From IMG/VR virus record IMGVR_UViG_3300025087_000188, positions 1 to 39,218 of that record: a stretch of DNA of 39,218 bases; one strand, written 5' to 3'. The notes beneath the pieces are model-generated. The model was not told where the DNA came from, searched no databases, and was given only the letters and a program-made list of their open reading frames with translations. Below, piece after piece: positions 722-36,528 of the stretch. A program made the position numbers and the translations under genes. Every line of letters begins with the position of its first letter. Position 1 is the first letter of the stretch. Source of the stretch: a virus.

Positions 722-2440
722 GTGGCGCGCCTGCTCACGGAGCGCGTGGACGCTCTCGGCCAGACCCGGCGAAACTCGGCCGAGGAGCGCAAGCTCATCG
801 ACGAGCTGGACGCGCTCTACGACGAGGGCAAGAAGGCGCGCGACCGCTGGGTCAAGGACGTCGACCTCGAACGCGATCTCAGACTCTACCGGGGCGAGGG
901 GGGGCCGGCCGACCGCGACCCGTACTTCGAGGCCAACTTCATCCAGGCGTTCATCGACCGCATGGTCGCGCAGCTGACCGACAACCGCCCGATCATCCGG
1001 GTGGAGAACAAGAAGCTCGGGCTCAAGAAGGTCGCCCAGGTGGCGCAGCCGGTCATCTCGGCCGTCTGGGAAGACGAGAAGATGCAGCGGCAGACCTTCA
1101 AGATGTGCCACACCGCCGCGATCAACGCCTCGGCCGGCCTCTACACCGGCTACGACATGGTGACGGACAGCTTCGTCATGGAGGTGCTCGGCATCAAGCA
1201 GGTGGTCTTCGACCCGATGGTCAAGGAGGCGGCGCTCGTCGGGTCGGGGGACTACCTCTTCATCGACCGGGTGCGGGCGCTGGACGACCTGCGGGCGCGC
1301 TTCCTGGCGCGCGGCGCCGAGGTCAAGGCCGACGCCGTGCTGTCCGAGACCCGCGAGCAGGCCAAGGCCCGGACGATCCTGTCGCCCCTGAACGACCTAC
1401 TGGGGCGCCGGAGCGGCCAGAGCGAGGCGCTGCCGCGCGCCATGGTGCGGGAATGCCTCATCAACGACCGCCGGCGGAACGGCGACGGCACGCTGCTCTT
1501 CCCCGGCGGGCGCATGATCCTCAAGACCCGGGACCTGATCCTCTGGGACGGGCCGAACCCGTACTGGGACGGCGTGCCGCCGATCGACTGGTACGACTGG
1601 ATCGTCGATCCGGAGCACCCCTACGGGTCCTCCGAGCCTCGCCGGCTCATGCGCTTGCAGTTGTCCTTCAACCAGATCATGGACGGCCTGGTGGAGAACC
1701 AGCTCCTGAGCAACTTCCTGTCGGTGATCGGGGACCACGACGCCCTGGAACCGAAGGTCTGGGAGAAGCTTCAGAAGATCGCCGGGTCGATCATCATGCG
1801 GAAGCGCAACCGGAACGCCGCGTTGACGATCCAGCCGCCGCCCGTGTTCGGCACCGACAAGATCAACCTCTCGCGGGCGATCTTCACCTTCGCGCAGCTC
1901 CTCACGGGCGTGACGGACGTGACCCTCGGCGAGACGCCGGGGTCCTTGCAGTCGGGCCAGGCGATCGAGGGCTTGCAGGAGGGCGCCAACCTCATGACGC
2001 GCTCGCGGGCGTCACGGCTGGAGGACTTCTTCGTTCGCGTCGGCAACAAGCTCCTGAGCCGCGTGTTCCAGTTCTTCCCCTCCGACCGCGTGGTGCATCT
2101 CGTGGGCCCCAGCGGCGACGCGATCGAGTACGCGATCAAGCGGCAGGAGTTCTTCGTGGACGACGACGGCCGACCGATCGAGCCCGAGAAGCGTCGGGAG
2201 GCGCTGCGCTACGTGCGCTTCCTGGTGTCGCCGGGCTCCTCGGCGCCGGGCAGCCGGCTCAAGCGCGCGCAGCTCATGATGGACCTCTACAAAGCCGCGC
2301 TGGCGCCGGGCGTGGACGTGCTGCGCGCGGCGGACTTCCCGAACCCCGAGGAGATGCTCAAGCGCGCCCGCGAAGAGCGCGCGACGGTGCCGCCCGAGGT
2401 GTCCCAGGCGCTGGCGAAGTCGGCCGGGGAGAAGCGGTGA
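722..2440 (+). CDS. Portal protein (head-to-tail connector)
   Basis: A 572-aa protein with GTG start. Portal proteins form the dodecameric ring at one capsid vertex through which DNA is packaged and ejected. Evidence: the usual size of podovirus portals, an N-terminal helical region followed by NFIQAFIDRMVAQLTDNRP, a central WYDWIVDPEHPYG segment followed by a long helix (LMRLQLSFNQIMDGLVENQL), and a late SLQSGQAIEGLQEGANL stretch (about residues 405-425) leading into long C-terminal helices. A 'SGxAIxxLQ' element before the crown helices is common in phage portals. It lies directly before scaffold and capsid genes, the expected order. The exact portal family cannot be fixed by eye. A search against P22- and T7-type portals would decide it. 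Confidence 0.82.
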   Translation: MARLLTERVDALGQTRRNSAEERKLIDELDALYDEGKKARDRWVKDVDLERDLRLYRGEGGPADRDPYFEANFIQAFIDRMVAQLTDNRPIIRVENKKLGLKKVAQVAQPVISAVWEDEKMQRQTFKMCHTAAINASAGLYTGYDMVTDSFVMEVLGIKQVVFDPMVKEAALVGSGDYLFIDRVRALDDLRARFLARGAEVKADAVLSETREQAKARTILSPLNDLLGRRSGQSEALPRAMVRECLINDRRRNGDGTLLFPGGRMILKTRDLILWDGPNPYWDGVPPIDWYDWIVDPEHPYGSSEPRRLMRLQLSFNQIMDGLVENQLLSNFLSVIGDHDALEPKVWEKLQKIAGSIIMRKRNRNAALTIQPPPVFGTDKINLSRAIFTFAQLLTGVTDVTLGETPGSLQSGQAIEGLQEGANLMTRSRASRLEDFFVRVGNKLLSRVFQFFPSDRVVHLVGPSGDAIEYAIKRQEFFVDDDGRPIEPEKRREALRYVRFLVSPGSSAPGSRLKRAQLMMDLYKAALAPGVDVLRAADFPNPEEMLKRAREERATVPPEVSQALAKSAGEKR

Positions 2441-4873: not shown

Positions 4874-5821
4874 GTGGCCACACCGACAAGGACGCAGACA
4901 TTAAACACCTTCGTCTCCAGCACGGCGGAGAACCGCCGGAAGGGCCTGATCGACAACTTCTTCGGGTCGGCCCCGCTGTGGGTCTACATGAAGAAGCAGA
5001 AGTCCGTGCCGGTGCGGGGCGGCGAGATCATCAAGGTCCCGCACATCCACTCCGGCTTCGAGGCCAGCTCCTACGGCCGGGGCGACACGTTCAACACCGA
5101 GGTCAAGGAGTTCGCGACGACCATGGCGTTCAACTGGAAGTTCGCCTACGCCCCCGTGAACCTGAACGTGATCGACGTGGACCTGAACGACTCGCCCGAG
5201 CAGACCTTCGACCTCGTGGACGCGGCGATGGAGAACGGCGAGCTGTCGCTCATCAACGACCTGGGCGTCCAGATGTTCGGCGACGGCACGGGCAACGCCA
5301 GCAAGGACCTGGACGGGCTGGCGATCGGCGTCAGCCGCACGGGCACCTACGGGGGCATCGTGCGGGGCACGGACGCCGAGGGCGCCTCGGTGCGGGCCGC
5401 CGTGGAGGACACCACGGGCGGCGCGGTGTCGCTCGCCACGATGAACAGCAACTTCGGCTCGTGCGTGGTCGGTCGGGAGAAGCCGAACCTGATCGCGACC
5501 ACGCAGACGCTCTGGAACCGGATCTGGGAGAAGTCCCAGCCGTCGGAGCGCAACGCCCCGGAGGATCTGCGGGACATCGGCTTCGACGTCGTGCGGTTCA
5601 ACGGCGCGAACACGATGGTGGACTCGCACTGCACGGCGGGCTTCCAGTACTACCTCAACACGAAGTTCTGGGAGCTGTTCACCCACCGCAAGTGGGACTT
5701 CCGTTTCCGGGGCTTCATGGAACAGACGAACCAGCAGATCAGCATCGGCCAGTTGATCTACTGGGGCGCGCTGGTCTGCCGCGGGCCGCGCTTCCAGGGC
5801 GTGGCGTCGGGCCTCAGCTAG
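4874..5821 (+). CDS. Major capsid protein
   Basis: A 315-aa protein starting at GTG 4874, with a strong GAGGAGGAG ribosome site 8-10 bases upstream. The sequence looks like a phage coat: an N-terminal arm (TRTQTLNTFVSSTAENRRKG), the LWVYMKKQKSVPVRGGEIIK strand pattern, MFGDGTGNASKDLDGLAIGV followed by TGTYGGIVRG (about residues 134-160), and a C-terminal TNQQISIGQLIYWGALVCRG strand. The 'GDGTGN...LDGL...TGTYGGI' arrangement recurs in HK97-fold coats of metagenomic podoviruses (general knowledge). Size and position after the scaffold agree. No maturation-protease domain is seen. Confidence 0.85.
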   Translation: MATPTRTQTLNTFVSSTAENRRKGLIDNFFGSAPLWVYMKKQKSVPVRGGEIIKVPHIHSGFEASSYGRGDTFNTEVKEFATTMAFNWKFAYAPVNLNVIDVDLNDSPEQTFDLVDAAMENGELSLINDLGVQMFGDGTGNASKDLDGLAIGVSRTGTYGGIVRGTDAEGASVRAAVEDTTGGAVSLATMNSNFGSCVVGREKPNLIATTQTLWNRIWEKSQPSERNAPEDLRDIGFDVVRFNGANTMVDSHCTAGFQYYLNTKFWELFTHRKWDFRFRGFMEQTNQQISIGQLIYWGALVCRGPRFQGVASGLS

Positions 5822-5824
5822 GCC

Positions 5825-6247
5825 ATGACCTCTCGGGAGTGGGCCAGGGCGGCGCTCCGGACGATGGCGCTGCCGGTGCCTGACCGGGACCGGACGCTCC
5901 ACGTCCAACTGCCGCCCGGTGTCCAGACGCCGGACGTTCGCACGCACTGTACCTGCCATGTGGTGGCGCAGTACGTCTGGCGGGCGGCGCACGAGCAACG
6001 CTGCACGCGCGTCGTGATTCATAACGGCCCGGTCCACACGCACGAGTTCGACACGACCGAGCTGTTCAAGCGGGCCACGCTCCAGCGCCTCGGGTTCTGG
6101 CCCAAGGTCCTGAAGATTCGCGGCCGGACGCCGCCGCAGCTGGCGACGGTCGGCCACCGGGCGCTCGGGAACACGCTCGAGGAGCGCCGCCCGATCTTTC
6201 ACGTCCCAGCAGCCGTTTCCGGCTCGCAGGCCGGCGGCGAGGAGTAG
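5825..6247 (+). CDS. Conserved-looking hypothetical protein after capsid (140 aa)
   Basis: ATG 5825 is 3 bases after the capsid stop. The 140-aa product has a Cys/His-containing middle (THCTCHVVAQYVWRAAHEQR, then VVIHNGPVHTHEF) that could bind metal, followed by TTELFKRATLQRLGFWPK. Not membrane-bound. The position suggests a head-completion or accessory role, but the sequence is not recognised. Confidence 0.65.
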   Translation: MTSREWARAALRTMALPVPDRDRTLHVQLPPGVQTPDVRTHCTCHVVAQYVWRAAHEQRCTRVVIHNGPVHTHEFDTTELFKRATLQRLGFWPKVLKIRGRTPPQLATVGHRALGNTLEERRPIFHVPAAVSGSQAGGEE

Positions 6248-6253
6248 ACGACG

Positions 6254-7045
6254 ATGGCGAACAGCACGACCGATCTGGTGTTCCGACTCTCCAGCATCAC
6301 GGGGCTCGGGATGCGCGACATCAACGGCAACGACGCGGAGCCCCAGGGGCGACCCGGGGCGATTTCGATCGTCACGGACGACTTCGGGGTCCGCATTCTG
6401 AAGTACATCAGGAACGTGAACGGCTCGGCGATCACGATGGGCGAGCTGCACAGCTACGCCTCGGACACCCAGAACACCAAGACGACCACGGTGTCGAACA
6501 TCACGTCGGGGACGACGACCTCGGCGGTGACCACGGGCCTGACGGCCAGCCGCCACCAGGGCGGGCTCTGCTACGTGCTGGACAACGCCGACTCGGCCGG
6601 GGACGCCCCGGAGACCGAGATCAGCCCGATCGCCGGCAACACGACGACGGCCATCACGCTGGACGCCGACTACCCGCTGACGGTCGCGCTGGCGGCGAAC
6701 GACGACCTGGAGCTGATCTCGACGTGGCAGATCGAGGACTCGGCCGACGGGGACGAGGCCTGGACAGTGGCGGGCGTGGTCCTGGGCAACCAGGGGCTCA
6801 CGAACCTCTACTACGGCTGGATTCAGGTGGAGGGGCCGGTGCGGGCCGACGTGACGGCGACCACGACGATCGCCGAGGGCGACCCGGTGGTGGCTGGCGC
6901 GAACCTCGTCAACCTCTTCGGCTCGGACGGGCACGAGCTGTGGATCGGCACGGCGCTCGCCGCCGCCACGAACGACATCGTGTCGGACAGCATCCTGGTG
7001 CATCTCCAGCTGTTTTCGACGGAACTCTCCGGAGGCACGCCGTAG
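6254..7045 (+). CDS. Beta-rich virion protein (capsid decoration/accessory candidate)
   Basis: A 263-aa protein with GAGGAG upstream of ATG. It is composed of short beta-type segments rich in T, S, A, G, D and N (KTTTVSNITSGTTTSAVTTG; DADYPLTVALAANDDLELIS) and has only isolated cysteines. The C-terminal half contains AWTVAGVVLGNQGLTNLYYG, IQVEGPVRADV and a final VHLQLF strand. Such composition and position after the coat gene are typical of capsid decoration or minor structural proteins. The specific family is not identified. Confidence 0.65.
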   Translation: MANSTTDLVFRLSSITGLGMRDINGNDAEPQGRPGAISIVTDDFGVRILKYIRNVNGSAITMGELHSYASDTQNTKTTTVSNITSGTTTSAVTTGLTASRHQGGLCYVLDNADSAGDAPETEISPIAGNTTTAITLDADYPLTVALAANDDLELISTWQIEDSADGDEAWTVAGVVLGNQGLTNLYYGWIQVEGPVRADVTATTTIAEGDPVVAGANLVNLFGSDGHELWIGTALAAATNDIVSDSILVHLQLFSTELSGGTP

Positions 7046-7057
7046 CGGGCGGCCCCG

Positions 7058-7330
7058 ATGGCAGCGGTCGCCGAGACGGCTGGGACGAAGGTCGAGTTCG
7101 TGGCGGGCAACCTCCACATCGTCGCCGCCGACGTGACGTCGGTGGACGACGGGGATACGTGGCAGCCCGGACTCGGCCGCATCGTCTTCGCTGCCTTCAC
7201 GAACTCCACGGCGAATCCGTCCGGCTCGCAGGTCAACGTGAGTTGGGCAACGGCCAACAACCGGGCAACGGTGACGTTCGACTGCGAAGCGGCCAGTCAG
7301 AGCGGCACCGTGATCGCCATGGGCTACTAG
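7058..7330 (+). CDS. Small beta-rich virion protein (90 aa)
   Basis: A 90-aa product with alternating hydrophobic pattern (TKVEFVAGNLHIVAADVTSV, GLGRIVFAAFTNSTANPSGS, NNRATVTFDCEAASQSGTVI) that looks like a single beta sandwich. It lies between two larger beta-rich structural genes, so a decoration or stopper-like role is inferred. Ribosome site is weak (GGGCGGCC before ATG). Confidence 0.6.
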   Translation: MAAVAETAGTKVEFVAGNLHIVAADVTSVDDGDTWQPGLGRIVFAAFTNSTANPSGSQVNVSWATANNRATVTFDCEAASQSGTVIAMGY

Positions 7331-7352
7331 CCCGCAGGCGGAGGAACGCATC

Positions 7353-8735
7353 ATGGCCTTGACTGTCAGCCTCACAGGGGATTACTTCCGCCAGGTGGGG
7401 AACATCAACGAGGTGACCGCCACGATCGACTTCGACTCGAGCTATCCCACGGGGGGCGAGAGTCTGACGGCGGCGGATCTCGGGTTGCGGACCTTCCTGA
7501 CCGGCGGGGTCGCGATCGACCCGAAGTCCGGCTACACCTTCGAGTTCGACTACACGAACGCCAAGGTGCTCGTCTACCGCACGGCGACCCTGACGCCGGC
7601 GGGATCCGTGGCGGCGCCGACCTTCACGGGCACGGCCAACGTCGGCACGGCCGGCATCGTCCAGGACGACGACACGGCCGCGACGAACGGGCACGCCCTC
7701 TATGTCGTGCCGGTGCCGCAGGCCACGCCGATCACGCTGGGCACGGAGGGCGGCACGGGCACGGGCACGATCCAGGACGACGACACGGCGGCCACGACGG
7801 GCGTGGCGCTCTACGTCGTGCTCGACGACGAGGAGTTCCTGCCCACCTACGCGCTCGGCCACTTCGAGTTCGTCTCGCCCACCAACGCGCACGGCACCTG
7901 CACGATCTTCAACGGCGGGCCGACGCTGCTGATCGAGGACGACGACGCCGCGGCCACGAACGGCGTGGCGGTGCGCGCGATCGCGGCCGACGGGGGGCTC
8001 GAAGCCACGCTGGCCGGTTCCGGCCGCTCGGTGCTGGTGCCGGTCTCGGACGGGCAGTACATCGTCGTCGCGGACTCCACGACGGGGGCGGCGCCGCCGA
8101 TCTACTTCGACGAGGACGCGGCGAACACCTACGAGCGCCTCATGGCCGTCGTGGTCGACAACCTCGACGAGACCTTCGAGCTGGTTGACATTCAGGCTGG
8201 CCGGGCGTTCCGGCCCTCGCCGGGGGCGGGCACGCGCCTGGCGACCCTCGTGACCGTGGGCCCGGGCGCGACCTACTCCAAGGGCACGGTCGGCTCGGCC
8301 GGCGGCGGCCCCGAGTACACGGTGACGCACGACCAGGCCGCGGCGATCATGCCGGGCGCAGCCCTCCTCTACGTGCAGGCGGCCGGCGCCGGCTTCAACG
8401 CCGCCGTGCCGGGCGGCGAGTCCGTCTTCATCCCGGTCGCCAACGGCGAGTTCATCGCCGTGGCCTACGCCGCCTCCCCGGCGGGCGTCCAGGTCTACTG
8501 GGACCACGACGGGACGAACGACTGGGAGCGGATGCTCGCCGTGGTCGTCGACAACGCCGACGAGACGTACTCCACGGAGGCGGCGACCGGCTGGCGCCGC
8601 GACACGCCGGCCGGGTCGAACTCGGCGCCGGCCTTCACGGGGACGGCCACCACGGCGGCGGCGCTGGCCGAGGTCGGCAACGCCACGGATCTCTCGGCCC
8701 TGACGGGCGTGCGCGTGCGCGCTAGGGGGTGGTGA
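7353..8735 (+). CDS. Large beta-rich virion protein with internal repeats
   Basis: A 460-aa protein. Residues 1-80 include SGYTFEFDYTNAKVLVYRT, a segment common in phage structural proteins. A D-D-D/E-A-A-T repeat follows three times: QDDDTAATNGHALYVV (104-119), QDDDTAATTGVALYVV (141-156) and EDDDAAATNGVAVRAI (195-210). A second, longer duplication gives RLMAVVVDNLDETF and, further on, RMLAVVVDNADETY. The product is probably a multi-domain beta protein on the capsid surface or tail, with acidic loops that could hold calcium (inference). Ribosome site GGAGG lies upstream of ATG. Confidence 0.65.
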   Translation: MALTVSLTGDYFRQVGNINEVTATIDFDSSYPTGGESLTAADLGLRTFLTGGVAIDPKSGYTFEFDYTNAKVLVYRTATLTPAGSVAAPTFTGTANVGTAGIVQDDDTAATNGHALYVVPVPQATPITLGTEGGTGTGTIQDDDTAATTGVALYVVLDDEEFLPTYALGHFEFVSPTNAHGTCTIFNGGPTLLIEDDDAAATNGVAVRAIAADGGLEATLAGSGRSVLVPVSDGQYIVVADSTTGAAPPIYFDEDAANTYERLMAVVVDNLDETFELVDIQAGRAFRPSPGAGTRLATLVTVGPGATYSKGTVGSAGGGPEYTVTHDQAAAIMPGAALLYVQAAGAGFNAAVPGGESVFIPVANGEFIAVAYAASPAGVQVYWDHDGTNDWERMLAVVVDNADETYSTEAATGWRRDTPAGSNSAPAFTGTATTAAALAEVGNATDLSALTGVRVRARGW

Positions 8736-8740
8736 ACTAG

Positions 8741-9175
8741 ATGGCCGACGCCGTCATCCAAGCCAAGCTGATCAGCTCCGGCGTCGTGCCTGGCGGTGGG
8801 GCGTGGGAGGTGTGGCAGGTCTTCAACGGCGAGCTGGTCAACGCCACGGCCACGGTGGACTCCGTGGTCCACACGGCGGGCGCGACCTACGGCTTCGACC
8901 TGACGCAGTTCCGCTACTTCGGCCTCTACGTCCTCGCCGCGAGCGCCACGGGCACGGCGGACCTCACGGTGCAGCTCCTCCAGTCCTACAACGACACGGC
9001 GGCCAACTACGTGGTGCCGGACACGGCGGGCACGGTCGACTCGGCCCTCGCCGAAACCGCCATGGTCTACGCGCTGGCTCCGAGTCCGATGCCACGGGCG
9101 CGTCTCCGCCTCGTCGGCAACGCAGGCAACCCCGTCGACACGCTGGTCTCGGCGTGGCTGTTCATGCAGGCGTAG
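8741..9175 (+). CDS. Beta-rich virion protein (144 aa)
   Basis: The 144-aa product begins 5 bases after the preceding stop. It looks like one beta-sandwich domain (GATYGFDLTQFRYFGLYVLA, TADLTVQLLQSYNDTAANYV, PRARLRLVGNAGNPVDTLVS) ending in a hydrophobic strand WLFMQA. The pattern resembles capsid-decoration or fibre-associated domains. No specific family is claimed. Confidence 0.6.
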   Translation: MADAVIQAKLISSGVVPGGGAWEVWQVFNGELVNATATVDSVVHTAGATYGFDLTQFRYFGLYVLAASATGTADLTVQLLQSYNDTAANYVVPDTAGTVDSALAETAMVYALAPSPMPRARLRLVGNAGNPVDTLVSAWLFMQA

Positions 9176-28600: not shown

Positions 28601-28873
28601 ATGGCCCGCTGCCGATCCTGCGGTGACGAGATCGATTTCGTGACGCTGCGCTCCGGCAAGCGGATGCCTGTCGAGTCCACGACGGCGGAGACCTACTACG
28701 TCCACCTGGGCCAGGGCGGGCACCCGCAGGTCGTGCTGGTGCTGGACTCGGGCGACATCGTGCGGGGGCGGCTCGGCAAGCAGCACGAGAGCGGCGTCCT
28801 GAAGGTGGAGGGGCGCGAGAGCCACTTCGCCTCGTGCCCCGCGGCGGACGAGTTCCGGAGGAACAATTCGTGA
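28601..28873 (+). CDS. Zinc-ribbon phage protein (90 aa)
   Basis: The product starts MARCRSCGDEIDFVTLRSGK and continues to RMPVESTT, followed by VHLGQGGHPQVVLVLDSGDI and a final SHFASCPAADEFRR. CRSC and the late CP/His form a likely zinc site. This 'C.xC...I.....SGK.MPVD' arrangement is common in phage early regions (general knowledge). It overlaps the nuclease gene by 4 bases. Its role is not known. Confidence 0.68.
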   Translation: MARCRSCGDEIDFVTLRSGKRMPVESTTAETYYVHLGQGGHPQVVLVLDSGDIVRGRLGKQHESGVLKVEGRESHFASCPAADEFRRNNS

Positions 28874-29430
28874 GTGATCTGCCGCACGTCACGGCGATTC
28901 TCAGCCGCGTCGGGCTCGGTCCGGACCTCTCCGGCATCGCCGAGTCGGTGTTGGAGGTCGCGCGGGCACGAGGCACGGCCGTCCACGCGGCGATCGAGGC
29001 CCTGACCTACGGGTATCTCGACCGTGAGGCGATGGACGAGACGCTCAACGGATACGTGGCGGCCTACGAGCGTTTCTTGGCTGACACGGGGTACAAGCCG
29101 ATCGTGGCGGAGGTGGAAGTCATCAGCGCCAAGTGGGAATACGTCGGTCACGCCGACGGGGTGGGCTGGATTGGCCAGGACCGGGTGCTGGTGGACTGGA
29201 AGGCGACGGCGGCGCTTGATACTCGGAGTGTTAGCTATCAACTGGCCGCCTATGGTATCGCGTGGCGCGAGATGCATCCAGACCAACCGGTCAAAAAGCT
29301 GCTCGCCATACAGCTCGGACCCAAGGGCGTCTACAGACTACACGAGATCAGCAACTCGCAGGCGGCCGGCCAGGTGTTCTTGGCGGCTCTCATCGTCTAT
29401 CGTGCCCGCCAGAATGGCCGCGTCGCATGA
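28870..29430 (+). CDS. PD-(D/E)XK family nuclease (RecB/exonuclease type)
   Basis: A 186-aa protein from GTG 28870. Active-site pattern: RGTAVHAAIE (34-43) as motif I with His39, a helix, E81-E83, YVGHADGVGW with Asp96, VLVDWKAT with Asp109 and Lys111, and SVSYQLAAYG with Gln124. This is the RecB/Cas4-like order. Compared with canonical sets the acid before K is Asp (D-W-K), as is often seen. It is too short for additional domains. It likely supplies the 5'-3' exonuclease for recombination with the annealing-like protein upstream. Late codons (29215-29345) are slightly more A/T-rich than the neighbours. Confidence 0.75.
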   Translation: MSDLPHVTAILSRVGLGPDLSGIAESVLEVARARGTAVHAAIEALTYGYLDREAMDETLNGYVAAYERFLADTGYKPIVAEVEVISAKWEYVGHADGVGWIGQDRVLVDWKATAALDTRSVSYQLAAYGIAWREMHPDQPVKKLLAIQLGPKGVYRLHEISNSQAAGQVFLAALIVYRARQNGRVA

Positions 29431-31002: not shown

Positions 31003-31015
31003 GGGGGTGGACATC

Positions 31016-31516
31016 ATGCTGACGAATCCGGCGTTCTACATCTGGGTCGGTGACGATGCTCTCTGTCCGATGAAGGGCGAGTTCCCGAGCGACAGCCGGT
31101 GGTCGGGCCTCCTGCACGCAGCCAAGCATCCATGTCACGTCGGTGCCGTAGGCTACACGGGCTCACTGCCGAAGGACCATCCAGAGTACCTCGTGGCTGT
31201 CCGGGACGAAGGGCGGCAGCTGTACCTCAACATTGTGGACGCCCCCGTGCCGATCTTCCGGCACGAGGTCTTCACGGCAGCGCTGGACTTCTTGGATGTC
31301 TGGGCGTTCACCGGGCCAGTATTGGTTCACTGCAACAATGGTCTTTCGCGCGCCCCCTCTCTCGTGCTGGCGTGGCTGGCGAAGCGGGGCCGAAAGGACT
31401 GGGCGGATAGGTCCTTCGCCGAGGCGCGGGCGGCCTTCGAGCGCCTGATGCCGGACTACGCGCCCGGCAAGGGGATCGAGCAGTTCCTGGTCGAAGAGTG
31501 GGGGAGGATCACGTAA
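31016..31516 (+). CDS. Dual-specificity-type protein phosphatase
   Basis: A 166-aa protein starting at ATG 31016, 9 bases from GAGGGGG (GTG 31007 is alternative). The catalytic P-loop is clear: GPVLVHCNNGLSRAPSLVLA with H105-C106-x5-R112, followed by S/A residues as in cysteine-phosphatases. An Asp in LYLNIVDAPVPI (D75) is placed as the general acid. This matches the HCx5R superfamily (DSP/PTP fold). It removes phosphate from Ser/Thr/Tyr or nucleotide/phosphoinositide substrates. The target is unknown. Phage copies may silence host signalling (inference). Its stop TAA overlaps the next ATG. Confidence 0.75.
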   Translation: MLTNPAFYIWVGDDALCPMKGEFPSDSRWSGLLHAAKHPCHVGAVGYTGSLPKDHPEYLVAVRDEGRQLYLNIVDAPVPIFRHEVFTAALDFLDVWAFTGPVLVHCNNGLSRAPSLVLAWLAKRGRKDWADRSFAEARAAFERLMPDYAPGKGIEQFLVEEWGRIT

Positions 31517-33474: not shown

Positions 33475-33708
33475 ATGAATCTGTCAAGCGGATGTTTCCC
33501 GGCAGACTTCGCCAACGCCATCGCCATCGCCCCCGCCATCGCCGGCGCCAACGCCGCCGCCTCCGCCGCCGCCATCGCCTCCGCCATCGCTCACGCCAAC
33601 GCCGCCGCCTCCGCCAACGCCATCGCCCCCGCCATCGCCGGCGCCATCGCCGTCGTCTACGCCCACGTCACCGTCAACGTCACGCCAATGAACAGGAGAC
33701 CGCGATGA
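33475..33708 (+). CDS. Ala-X dipeptide repeat protein (77 aa)
   Basis: ATG 33475 reads 77 codons. After LSSGCFPADF the sequence is a strict alternation of Ala with N, I, P, G, S or H (such as ANAIAIAPAIAGANAAAS) for about 50 residues, then VTVNVTPMNRRPR. The DNA is a GCC-NNC hexamer array (33511 to about 33650). Alternating Ala-x could form silk-like beta strands or a spiral. The reverse strand reads a Gly/Asp repeat, but codon and ribosome-site context favour this strand. Translation is plausible, function unknown. Confidence 0.45.
   Translation: MNLSSGCFPADFANAIAIAPAIAGANAAASAAAIASAIAHANAAASANAIAPAIAGAIAVVYAHVTVNVTPMNRRPR
33511..33657. repeat. GCC-NNC hexamer array (copy 1)
   Basis: About 24 imperfect GCC-NNC hexamers. 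It contains blocks of 20 bases (33602-33621) and 21 bases (33581-33601) that recur exactly at 34334-34353 and 34355-34375. Prone to slippage and to assembly error. Confidence 0.7.
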
Positions 33709-34316
33709 TCGCACTGTCCGTCGGCCTGCACTTCGCCAAGGGCTACATCGGCAATCCGTACTGGCCCGCCATGGAGCGGGTGATCACAATCCGCAAGCAG
33801 TCCGGCGTCGATCGCGCGCGGAGCGAAGACAAGCGCGCCAAGACGCTCAAAGCGTGGCTGGAGAGCCACGAGATGACCCTGGCCGACTACCGCGCCCTCG
33901 AAGCGGAGGCGTCCCTGCCGTTCTACACCGCGCCGAGCGGCGAGATCGTGGTGCCGGCCCACCACCTGCACGGCTTCATGGCGGGGGTCGCGGCCGTCGC
34001 GCCGGCCAGCGTGCGTCTCGCGCGCCCGGAGCAGATCCGGACGCTCGTCGAGTGGGGGGACCTCGCGACCGGCAAGACCACGCCGGACGGCGTGTGGGAA
34101 CGCTTCATCCGCCACCCGCTGACGAACCAGCGGCGGCTCCAGTCGTCCGCGTACATCGAGCAGTTCACCGCGCGCGGGACGCTGCGGATCACCAACGACG
34201 ACGTCGAGAAGAAGGCGCGCGACTTCATCGCGTGGGGCGGGCACGAGGTGGGCGTCGGCGCCGCCCGAAAGATGGGCTGGGGCCGGTTCGAGGTCACCGA
34301 GTGGACGCCCGCGTGA
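33705..34316 (+). CDS. RAMP-like protein with glycine-rich loop
   Basis: A 203-aa protein; ATG 33705 with AACAGGAGAC upstream. The N-terminus is helical and basic. Residues 78-90 (SGEIVVPAHHLHG) resemble the 'xIPGSSLKG' element of RAMP (repeat-associated mysterious protein, ferredoxin-like RNA-binding) proteins. The C-terminus (174-197) reads FIAWGGHEVGVGAARKMGWG followed by RFEVTEW, with G-x-G-x4-G-x-G (183-193) like the RAMP glycine loop. These are motif resemblances, not a proven family. No CRISPR array is nearby, and copies of a hexamer repeat lie on both sides. An RNA-binding or nuclease role is conceivable. Confidence 0.55.
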   Translation: MIALSVGLHFAKGYIGNPYWPAMERVITIRKQSGVDRARSEDKRAKTLKAWLESHEMTLADYRALEAEASLPFYTAPSGEIVVPAHHLHGFMAGVAAVAPASVRLARPEQIRTLVEWGDLATGKTTPDGVWERFIRHPLTNQRRLQSSAYIEQFTARGTLRITNDDVEKKARDFIAWGGHEVGVGAARKMGWGRFEVTEWTPA

Positions 34317-34320
34317 GGTT

Positions 34321-34383
34321 GCCACCGCCGCCCCCGCCGCCTCCGCCAACGCCGCCGCCATCGCTCACGCCAACGATCCGCAC
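34321..34383. repeat. GCC-NNC hexamer array (copy 2, shorter)
   Basis: A short repeat of the same hexamer family lies just after the RAMP-like gene. Two blocks match copy 1 exactly (34334-34353 and 34355-34375). It reads AASANAAAIAHAN in one frame and stops soon after, so it is likely a remnant or the far arm of a duplication. Confidence 0.6.
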
Positions 34384-34417: not shown

Positions 34418-34447
34418 TTGACCTGCAGCGGGAGGCCGCCGGATAAT
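34418..34447 (+). promoter_or_regulatory. Strong sigma70-like promoter before replication genes
   Basis: TTGACC (34418-34423) and GATAAT (34442-34447) are separated by 18 bases, each matching five of six consensus positions. It lies in the 225-base gap after the repeat and before ATG 34542, giving a leader of about 90 bases. An earlier in-frame start at 34446 would overlap the -10 element and is therefore unlikely. Confidence 0.7.
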
Positions 34448-34541
34448 GTGTGCGGTAGAGCGCGCAGTGCAGAGCGGCTCGGTGGCGTCCGATTCCCCCC
34501 AGGTTGCGGGCGACGCCGAGCCGCTAGAACTTGGGGGAGCA

Positions 34542-34862
34542 ATGCCGCGCATCCGCACGTTGAAGCCCTCACACGCCCGCACATTTCGGTATTTCCGCGT
34601 CGCGCACAGCTTTCTCGCTCTCCCGCTCCCGTGGTACGCGAAGATGGTCTACGTCGCGCTCTGCCATCACGTCGATGCTGGCGAGGACAGTCCCTCGATC
34701 GGGAGCCTCGCCTCCGACGCGGGATGCTCGGTCAGCTTAGTCCACAGGGCCTTCATGAGGCGCGAGGCGGTTGGGGTGCTCCAGATCCGGTCGGGGCGGC
34801 GCCCCGGCGGCACGAATGTCTACACCCTCCACGATCCGCCAGGCCATCGAGGATTCCCATGA
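34542..34862 (+). CDS. Winged-helix replication-region protein (106 aa)
   Basis: ATG 34542 follows GGGGGAGC. It starts MPRIRTLKPSHARTFRYFRV, a PRIRTxKP opening known from phage replication helix-turn-helix proteins. Residues 36-95 form a winged helix: MVYVALCHHVDAGEDSPSIG, the recognition region SLASDAGCSVSLVHRAFMRR and wing GGTNVYTLH. It is clearly paralogous to the N-terminus of the next gene. Probably binds origin or operator DNA, as initiator partner or regulator. Stop overlaps the next ATG. Confidence 0.68.
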   Translation: MPRIRTLKPSHARTFRYFRVAHSFLALPLPWYAKMVYVALCHHVDAGEDSPSIGSLASDAGCSVSLVHRAFMRREAVGVLQIRSGRRPGGTNVYTLHDPPGHRGFP

Positions 34863-35563
34863 GCGTCTACGCGATTGGCCACGCCTTCCAGGTGCACCTG
34901 CCACCACGAGAGAAATTCGTGCTTGTGGCGCTGGCAGATAACGCCGACCACGCCGGGTCGTGCTATCCCTCGCTTGAGACCCTCGCGGGCAAGACGTCGA
35001 TGTCCGTGAGAACCGTCCAGCGCGCACTCAGGGATCTCGAGACCCTAGGCGCACTCGTCGTCGAACGACACGGCGGGCGCGGTCGGTCGAGCCGGTACAC
35101 CATCGTCGGCGTGCCGACAGTACCGACGGTGGTAAGAAAAAACCCTGTCAGCGTGTCACCCATTGCCGCTGGAAAGGGTGACAACGAGTCCATAAAGGGT
35201 GACACGGGTGGCCAACTAACCGTAGTTAACCGTACTACTCCTAGTCTTAGAAAGACTAGGGCCGTTGGTCAGAGCGCCAACGGCGTCGGGGCCCTCATTG
35301 AGGCCTACCAGCAGCAGTTCGAGGCGAAGTACCAGGAGCCCCCGCTCATCAGTCGGCCGAAGGAGCCCGTGCTGCTGGCCAAGCTCGTCAAGCAATTCGG
35401 CGAGGAGAAGGTCCGGGACAGGCTGGCACAGTTCTTCCGGAGCGATGACAAGTTCATCGTCGGATCTGGCCACTCGCTCGCCGCGTTTCACGGGTGCTTC
35501 AACAAGCTCATCGCCCTGGCGCGCGACCGCGAGCCCCAGCCGGGCTACGGGAAGTGGGGCTAG
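34859..35563 (+). CDS. Replication initiator protein with embedded origin
   Basis: A 234-aa protein. Residues 15-83 form a winged helix of HTH_36 type (EKFVLVALADNADHAGSCYP; SLETLAGKTSMSVRTVQRAL; wing GRSSRYTIVG). A polar linker (90-140) is encoded by repeat-rich DNA (see origin). The C-terminal domain (142-225) has IEAYQQQFEAKYQEPPLISR and FGEEKVRDRLAQFFRSDDKF, then HSLAAFHGCFNKLI, like the C-terminal domains of phage replication organisers. Lambda O has the same plan: N-terminal DNA binding, C-terminal helicase loading, with the origin in the linker DNA. No helicase or polymerase gene is seen, so host enzymes may be used. Confidence 0.72.
   Translation: MSVYAIGHAFQVHLPPREKFVLVALADNADHAGSCYPSLETLAGKTSMSVRTVQRALRDLETLGALVVERHGGRGRSSRYTIVGVPTVPTVVRKNPVSVSPIAAGKGDNESIKGDTGGQLTVVNRTTPSLRKTRAVGQSANGVGALIEAYQQQFEAKYQEPPLISRPKEPVLLAKLVKQFGEEKVRDRLAQFFRSDDKFIVGSGHSLAAFHGCFNKLIALARDREPQPGYGKWG
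35142..35260. other. Candidate origin of replication inside the initiator gene
   Basis: Three copies of GGGTGACA-type iteron: GTGTCACCC (inverted, 35153-35161), AAAGGGTGACA (35173-35183) and AAAGGGTGACAC (35194-35205). The two direct copies are 21 bases apart, i.e. two helical turns. They are followed by a direct repeat TAACCGTA at 35217-35224 and 35227-35234 (10 bases apart), an inverted AACTA/TAGTT, and the perfect 9-bp stem CCTAGTCTT/AAGACTAGG (35240-35260). The segment is more A/T-rich than anything near it. Together these are the parts of an iteron origin plus unwinding element. Confidence 0.6.
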
Positions 35564-35871: not shown

Positions 35872-36528
35872 ATGAAGATCGAGATCACGCACCGCGTTTC
35901 CGGCGCCGTGCTGTTCGGCGTTGAAGCAGAATCCTGGCGTTGCGCCGTCGAGATCGCTGTCAAGCAAGACGCCAACCTCCGGGACGCCGACCTCGGGGGC
36001 GCCGACCTCCGGGGCGCCGACCTCCGGGGCGCCGACCTCGGGGGCGCCGACCTCGGGGACGCCGACCTCCGGGGCGCCACCCTCCGGGGCGCCGACCTCC
36101 GGGGCGCCACCCTCCGGGGCGCCGACCTCGGGGGCGCCAACCTCCGGGGCGCCACCCTCCGGGGCGCCGACCTCGGGGGCGCCGACCTCGGGGGCGCCGA
36201 CCTCCGGGGCGCCGACCTCGGGGGCGCCAACCTCTTGGGTGCCAACCTTTGGGGCGCCAATCTTCGAGACACCGATCTCTGGAGCGCCAACCTCCGTGGC
36301 ACCAGGGTACTCGCTGTCGCATTCCTCGGCCACATCGACGGGTGGGCGACAACGCTCTGGCGCACCGATCAGGGCTACCGCATCCAGGCGGGATGCCATA
36401 TGTTCACGCTCGACGAGGCGACAGCGCACTACGCGGATCGCGCGGACCGCCGCGGGCTCTACTACCTCGCCACGGAGGCGTGGCGGGTGATCGCGCGGTT
36501 GCAGGGATGGGAGCCGGAGTCGTCATGA
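35872..36528 (+). CDS. Pentapeptide-repeat protein (218 aa)
   Basis: ATG 35872 with GAAGGAG upstream. Residues 1-33 form an N-cap ([20 protein letters not shown]). Residues 34-143 are 22 consecutive A(D/N/T)LxG pentapeptides that form a right-handed beta helix. The C-terminal 75 residues ([33 protein letters not shown] and [13 protein letters not shown]) are a separate domain that recurs with such repeats in phages. Pentapeptide proteins can mimic DNA and inhibit gyrase (general knowledge), but that function is not shown here. The unusually uniform repeats suggest recent expansion. Confidence 0.8.
35971..36300. repeat. Tandem 15-bp array coding pentapeptides
   Basis: Twenty-two units of 15 bases, mostly GCCGACCTCCGGGGC or the variant with CTCGGG, in frame with the gene. 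Near-identity between units makes copy number variable and assembly errors likely. All three forward frames and the reverse strand stay open here, which creates spurious reading frames. Confidence 0.8.

Follow-up and report, generated by a model that had tools for sequence, protein, structure and literature searches.

VIPR systems, described in a 2026 preprint (PMC13142463), associate a phage RAMP protein (Vipr) with guide RNAs made of GGY/NN repeats. According to the main text of that preprint, these RNAs contain 9–16 YNNGG units and read DNA through their NN pairs, skipping one base; each vrRNA has a conserved 3′ tail and is expressed and bound by Vipr, and a vap accessory gene belongs to the system. 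The array consensus is worded there as YNNGG 'or a related consensus' (fig. S17). The same source indicates that RAMP thumbs break crRNA-target pairing at a six-base interval. The guide unit dealt with in its main text has five bases, and its supplement may list a six-base consensus. No other paper on VIPR was found in the literature searched.

The window analysed here is a virus record of 39,218 bases (IMG/VR IMGVR_UViG_3300025087_000188; GC content 70%). The initial annotation had placed a RAMP-like gene in it between two arrays of a GCC-NNC hexamer, and our analysis confirmed this arrangement (Table 1). The predicted protein does contain the two elements reported for it, IVVPAHHLHG and GVGAARKMGWG. 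In array 1, 26 of the 27 unit spacings are exactly 6, and 24 strict GC[CT]-NNC units occupy positions 33511–33654. The identical blocks said to be common to both arrays are real, one of 21 nt (33581 and 34355) and one of 20 nt (33602 and 34334), in swapped order. Trinucleotide shuffling of the window produced no array. Rfam gave no match in the window at E 1 and, in 13 other loci, two tRNAs only, with no hammerhead found.

Table 1. Features of the hexamer array locus and of other parts of the window.
Feature	Position	Strand	Remarks
vipr-like gene, predicted RAMP fold, 203 aa	33705..34316	+	G-loop GVGAARKMGWGRFEV close to the C-terminus
Upstream CGYCNN hexamer array (array 1), 28 CG[CT]C units	33510..33683	+	ends 21 bp ahead of the gene; proposed vrRNA-like guide-RNA tract
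Downstream short hexamer array (array 2), 6 CG[CT]C units with slips	34321..34375	+	starts 5 bases past the stop codon
77-aa (Ala-X)n ORF	33475..33708	+	spans array 1; stop overlaps the start of the vipr-like gene via ATGA; probably incidental
Sigma-70-like promoter TTGACC-18-GATAAT	34418..34447	+	3′ of array 2, towards the next genes; 1 found against 0.2 expected
Imperfect inverted repeat	34473..34525		arms of 19 nt (84%); lies between array 2 and an O-like replication gene (34859..35563)
Pentapeptide-repeat protein	35872..36528		15-nt tandem array at 35970..36300; another repeat-rich gene, 1.5 kb away from the locus
P22-like portal	722..2440		
PD-(D/E)XK nuclease	28834..29430		
Dual-specificity phosphatase-like protein	31007..31516		

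Single-sequence searches with the window protein were nearly silent, with no Pfam or NCBIfam family and a weak Cmr6 match at 0.048. Relatives were found in IMG/VR, two by a first search and then 14 loci by profile. In total, 21 distinct contigs carry the gene (the window, L004–L017, L048, L139, L164, L165, L169 and L180); L138, where the gene is truncated, was left out of all counts. The 17 members of alignment A3 keep PYW, SG..R, NQR and a C-terminal G.G..R..G.GRF. The 6-residue VVxxGTG loop present in the other 14 rows of alignment A2 is missing from the window protein. A structure was predicted for the relative L005, which is 51% identical to the window protein (pLDDT 90.5, pTM 0.79; an earlier prediction from 3 rows, with a pLDDT of 47.8, was set aside). 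Among the 50 Foldseek matches listed for this model, all were CRISPR type III/VII Cas7-type, Cas7-11 or Cmr chains. VIA-align aligned it to Csm3 with a Z of 13.2 (149 residues, 2.9 Å), and the best named match among viral models was a siphovirus 'Cas system-associated RAMP superfamily protein'. The model therefore supports a RAMP fold of the Csm3/Cas7 type for the family, as had been supposed from two motifs.

With Csm3 chains as best folds, the protein might be a stray Csm3-like subunit of a Class 1 CRISPR system. However, no CRISPR repeat-spacer array was found in the region, and sequence models of Cas RAMPs reached only 0.007–0.05, against 2.7e-6 for the Vipr family. No other cas genes were seen among the part of the window ORFs that was searched. 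We consider this origin extremely improbable. The resemblance to Class 1 systems lies in the predicted Cas7 fold and in the six-base repeat unit, which equals the interval of thumb breaks in crRNA-target pairing given in PMC13142463; the arrays differ from repeat-spacer arrays in that four of the six bases are fixed.

Profile comparisons point to Vipr instead. The Vipr protein of Escherichia phage SUSP1 belongs to phrog_4652 (1.4e-96), a family with no named function that is matched by 11 of 17 members of our family (best value 2.7e-6) and by L180 (2.9e-6), whereas the window protein itself gave no match. Alignment of the family with six Viprs by hhalign yielded a probability of 92.3 and an E-value of 5.5e-7; the match of the family profile to PDB 36pp, 'SUSP1 Vipr protein', is a lead at most (E 1.8). 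In a blind check, we ran the family profile against 395 genomes from the class of the Actinomycetes metagenome-assembled genome (MAG) that carries L139. It retrieved the source genome and two bacterial genes only (7.9e-5 and 1.2e-4). These new genes, L161 and L162, both fall in phrog_4652 (2.5e-32 and 1.2e-32); L162 has 15 perfect GGYNN units directly 3′ of its stop codon, and L161 a degenerate five-base tract. GGYNN arrays lie in sense orientation in SUSP1, LittleE and Trine, and the other three Vipr loci have no run of five perfect units. In trees, one long and fully supported branch splits the proteins with hexamers from those with pentamers (17 versus 8, and 20 versus 8). At the level of the family, sequence profiles thus indicate a RAMP of the Vipr lineage, the window protein alone falling short of phrog_4652.

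We then compared the surroundings of the gene in its relatives, using for all loci one array detector that requires at least 8 units. An array lies within 150 bp of the gene in 15 of the 16 loci found through the protein, versus a mean of 16% when gene-sized stretches are placed at random in the same loci. L048, first found via an array search, was left out of this count, and two repeats that are not VIPR-like (L017 152 and L139 1276) were left out of both this count and the unit statistics. The sixteenth locus, L013, has a relaxed CGNC tract directly downstream of the gene (8660–9120), with 14 six-spaced pairs versus 1.4 in shuffles (0 of 500 shuffles); after it, the sequence shows a strong hairpin. 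Arrays reach about 60 units, and those upstream stop 15–97 bp 5′ of the start codon. The last search added four contigs. In L164, L165 and L169, all three close relatives, arrays flank the gene on both sides and their NN differ; the array of L180 is of a relaxed form. When whole records were scanned, 16 of 17 contained five-unit matches, with reversed-pattern controls near zero. The matches are one-stranded except in three records: the Actinomycetes MAG (76 to 1), a Chloroflexota MAG, whose count of 4 to 3 was regarded as background, and the phage of L011 (29 to 6).

A neutral hexamer microsatellite spreading between genes could have come to lie beside this gene by chance, all the more as arrays occur at other gene boundaries in L007–L011 and many viral contigs contain GCC-NNC repeats of low diversity. 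Such chance does not fit the proximity in 15 of 16 loci and in 3 of 3 found prospectively, and slippage yields identical units, whereas here NN is near random and the rest fixed; we hold this explanation to be very unlikely. The initial annotation had offered two readings of the layout. Insertion or duplication by repeat recombination is not needed, because the gene is present in every relative while the arrays differ between relatives. A casual, non-systematic look found no locus that has the arrays in this position but lacks the gene. The other reading, a functional unit of repeat and protein, is supported, as the association recurs in relatives. Long hexamer arrays were also seen 4–6 kb from the gene, at L007 1658–2047 and, on the opposite strand, at L011 3312–3455.

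The sense unit, derived from 1,220 units, is CGYCNN: C 95%, G 99%, C or T 76% and 18%, C 97%, followed by two positions carrying 0.04 and 0.03 bits. Conservation of the first four positions is partly built into a detector that selects CG[CT]C, but the near randomness of NN is not. All sixteen NN pairs are present, and NN is AT-rich in GC-rich phages. Codon positions 1 and 2 of such genomes are not known to have this composition. A scan of viral contigs for GCC-NNC runs listed at least 129 arrays, most of them with few NN types (Ala-Tyr, Ala-Asp and similar). Nine NN types were reached in three of the at least 129 arrays listed, two of which are those of the two gene-carrying contigs; the third is L125.

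The rate at which NN changes could be estimated from the near-identical phages L009 and L010. NN positions differ at 39/143 and 36/143 (27% and 25%, 26% overall), and fixed unit positions show 2 to 11 differences of about 144, although some array stretches may have been replaced instead of mutated. The flanks differ at 154 of 4,206 bases (3.7%). Across 234 codons, the gene differs at one first, one second and 23 third positions (9.8% for the third). The protein is therefore conserved while the NN pairs race.

These figures bear on the possibility that the arrays encode (Ala-X)n or (Pro-S/T/A/P)n peptides or linkers, translationally coupled to the gene. In four loci (the window and L008–L010), an Ala-X frame runs up to the gene start and closes there with ATGA, and one array lies inside a RecT-family ORF, where it is read as a Pro-rich linker (L010 2463–2648). 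Unit composition alone, however, makes all forward frames stop-free; elsewhere the frame is a different one, has no start, or is interrupted by stops or 7-nt slips, and the L009 array at 7331–7593 has an in-frame TAA. The X residues would moreover differ at the rates of NN, against about 0.4% at codon positions 1 and 2 of the gene. Since frames, starts and stops vary among loci, it is probably not their translation that makes the arrays matter, and coding for peptides seems to us quite improbable. The counterpart of the L010 array in L009 differs at a few NN only.

The RNA of the sense arrays is more open than shuffled sequences (z of +2.5, +3.1 and +1.4) and the antisense RNA is strongly folded (z of −4.1), which fits a sense guide. 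In L180, five modules of 59–81 nt, with 9–12 hexamers each, lie 3′ of the gene and are followed by a sixth stretch and a hairpin read by eye from the sequence. Their hexamer, in a parse fitted to G.Y, is GNYNNN, with G at 92% and Y at 99%, and each module closes in a common T-rich tail around GACGAYGNTTCTTTTT. Sense, open arrays that stop shortly before a start codon could also be sites at which the protein binds its own mRNA and controls its own synthesis or that of a neighbour. We judge this improbable: binding sites need no hypervariable NN that outpaces third codon positions, and the arrays also occur downstream of the gene and, in L180, as tailed modules.

The hexamer arrays are most likely putative guide RNAs of the VIPR kind written in six-letter units, and the locus itself is, in our view, likely to be a compact RNA-guided system of that kind with a six-base code. 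As in VIPR type II (SUSP1, PDB 36pp), a single phage-borne RAMP, related by profile homology, is adjoined by sense arrays in which fixed bases alternate with hypervariable NN. Unlike the GGYNN pentamer of SUSP1, the unit is CGYCNN with a period of 6, so that the arrays do not conform to a GGY/NN pentamer; the hexamer can be written G-N-Y-NN-C, that is, VIPR's GGY with its middle base free and one base added after NN. The longest arrays also exceed the 9–16 units reported in the main text of PMC13142463. No common 3′ tail was found beside CGYCNN arrays, in contrast to VIPR and to L180. No accessory gene common to the loci was found (within 6 kb, 17 loci), neighbour clustering returning only the vipr gene, its overlapping frames and genes common to near relatives; single loci may have accessory genes of their own.

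In such a system, the array would be transcribed in the sense direction and Vipr subunits would line up along its RNA, each taking one hexamer and holding the fixed GNY...C bases. The NN pairs of about 9–16 successive units could then act jointly in gapped pairing with target DNA of a rival phage or prophage and block transcription of that target. The AT-richness of NN, the array length, the period of 6, the lack of a common tail or accessory gene, the loop missing from the window protein, its failure to reach phrog_4652 and the outcome of the target searches count against VIPR. So does the existence of diverse arrays without the gene: L125 has two of them inside one long ORF (480–545 and 1066–1127), and no vipr-like gene was found in its 35-kb record. 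These could possibly be stand-alone guides.

The target searches were weak, since targets are perhaps unsampled, guide ends are uncertain, the skip may differ and the search space was small or unsuited. In 1.3 Mb of loci, dinucleotide matches with skips of 0–3 showed no clear excess at any skip: skip 1 gave 526 seven-of-ten and 9 eight-of-ten matches, the other skips 415–456 and 7–23, and the single nine-of-ten match occurred at skip 3. Likewise, 11 array runs of the new loci gave no clear excess. Exact 10-unit patterns (two from the window, one from L009/L010) had no match in IMG/VR, a 12-unit pattern of L139 had none in 396 genomes even when up to 2 mismatches were allowed, and one decoded peptide pointed to no target among phage records.

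We propose more tentatively, as a possibility on the unlikely side, that the family forms a separate VIPR branch with a six-base guide unit, where a Csm3-like Cas7 would read hexamer RNA with two coding bases under its own skip rule. Such a branch could stand midway between the five-base backbone of VIPR and the six-base one of CRISPR. If true, the six-base spacing of Class 1 CRISPR would already exist in a phage system without CRISPR. A six-base version would allow a direct test of how repeat length sets the base-pairing rule, and would bear on whether six-base spacing predates CRISPR. The family also offers compact (about 200 aa) candidates for RNA-guided DNA binding, and suggests the existence, in GC-rich phages, of rapidly changing guide arrays that can readily pass for low-complexity coding repeats.

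Two loci showed further peculiarities. The vipr-like frame of L169 (3001–3507), with arrays on both flanks, is broken by a shift, either an assembly error or decay. In L139, the arrays at 5642–5946 and 6651–7287 contain 7-nt units, often CGCCCGT, every 1–12 hexamers, which may perhaps mark guide borders.
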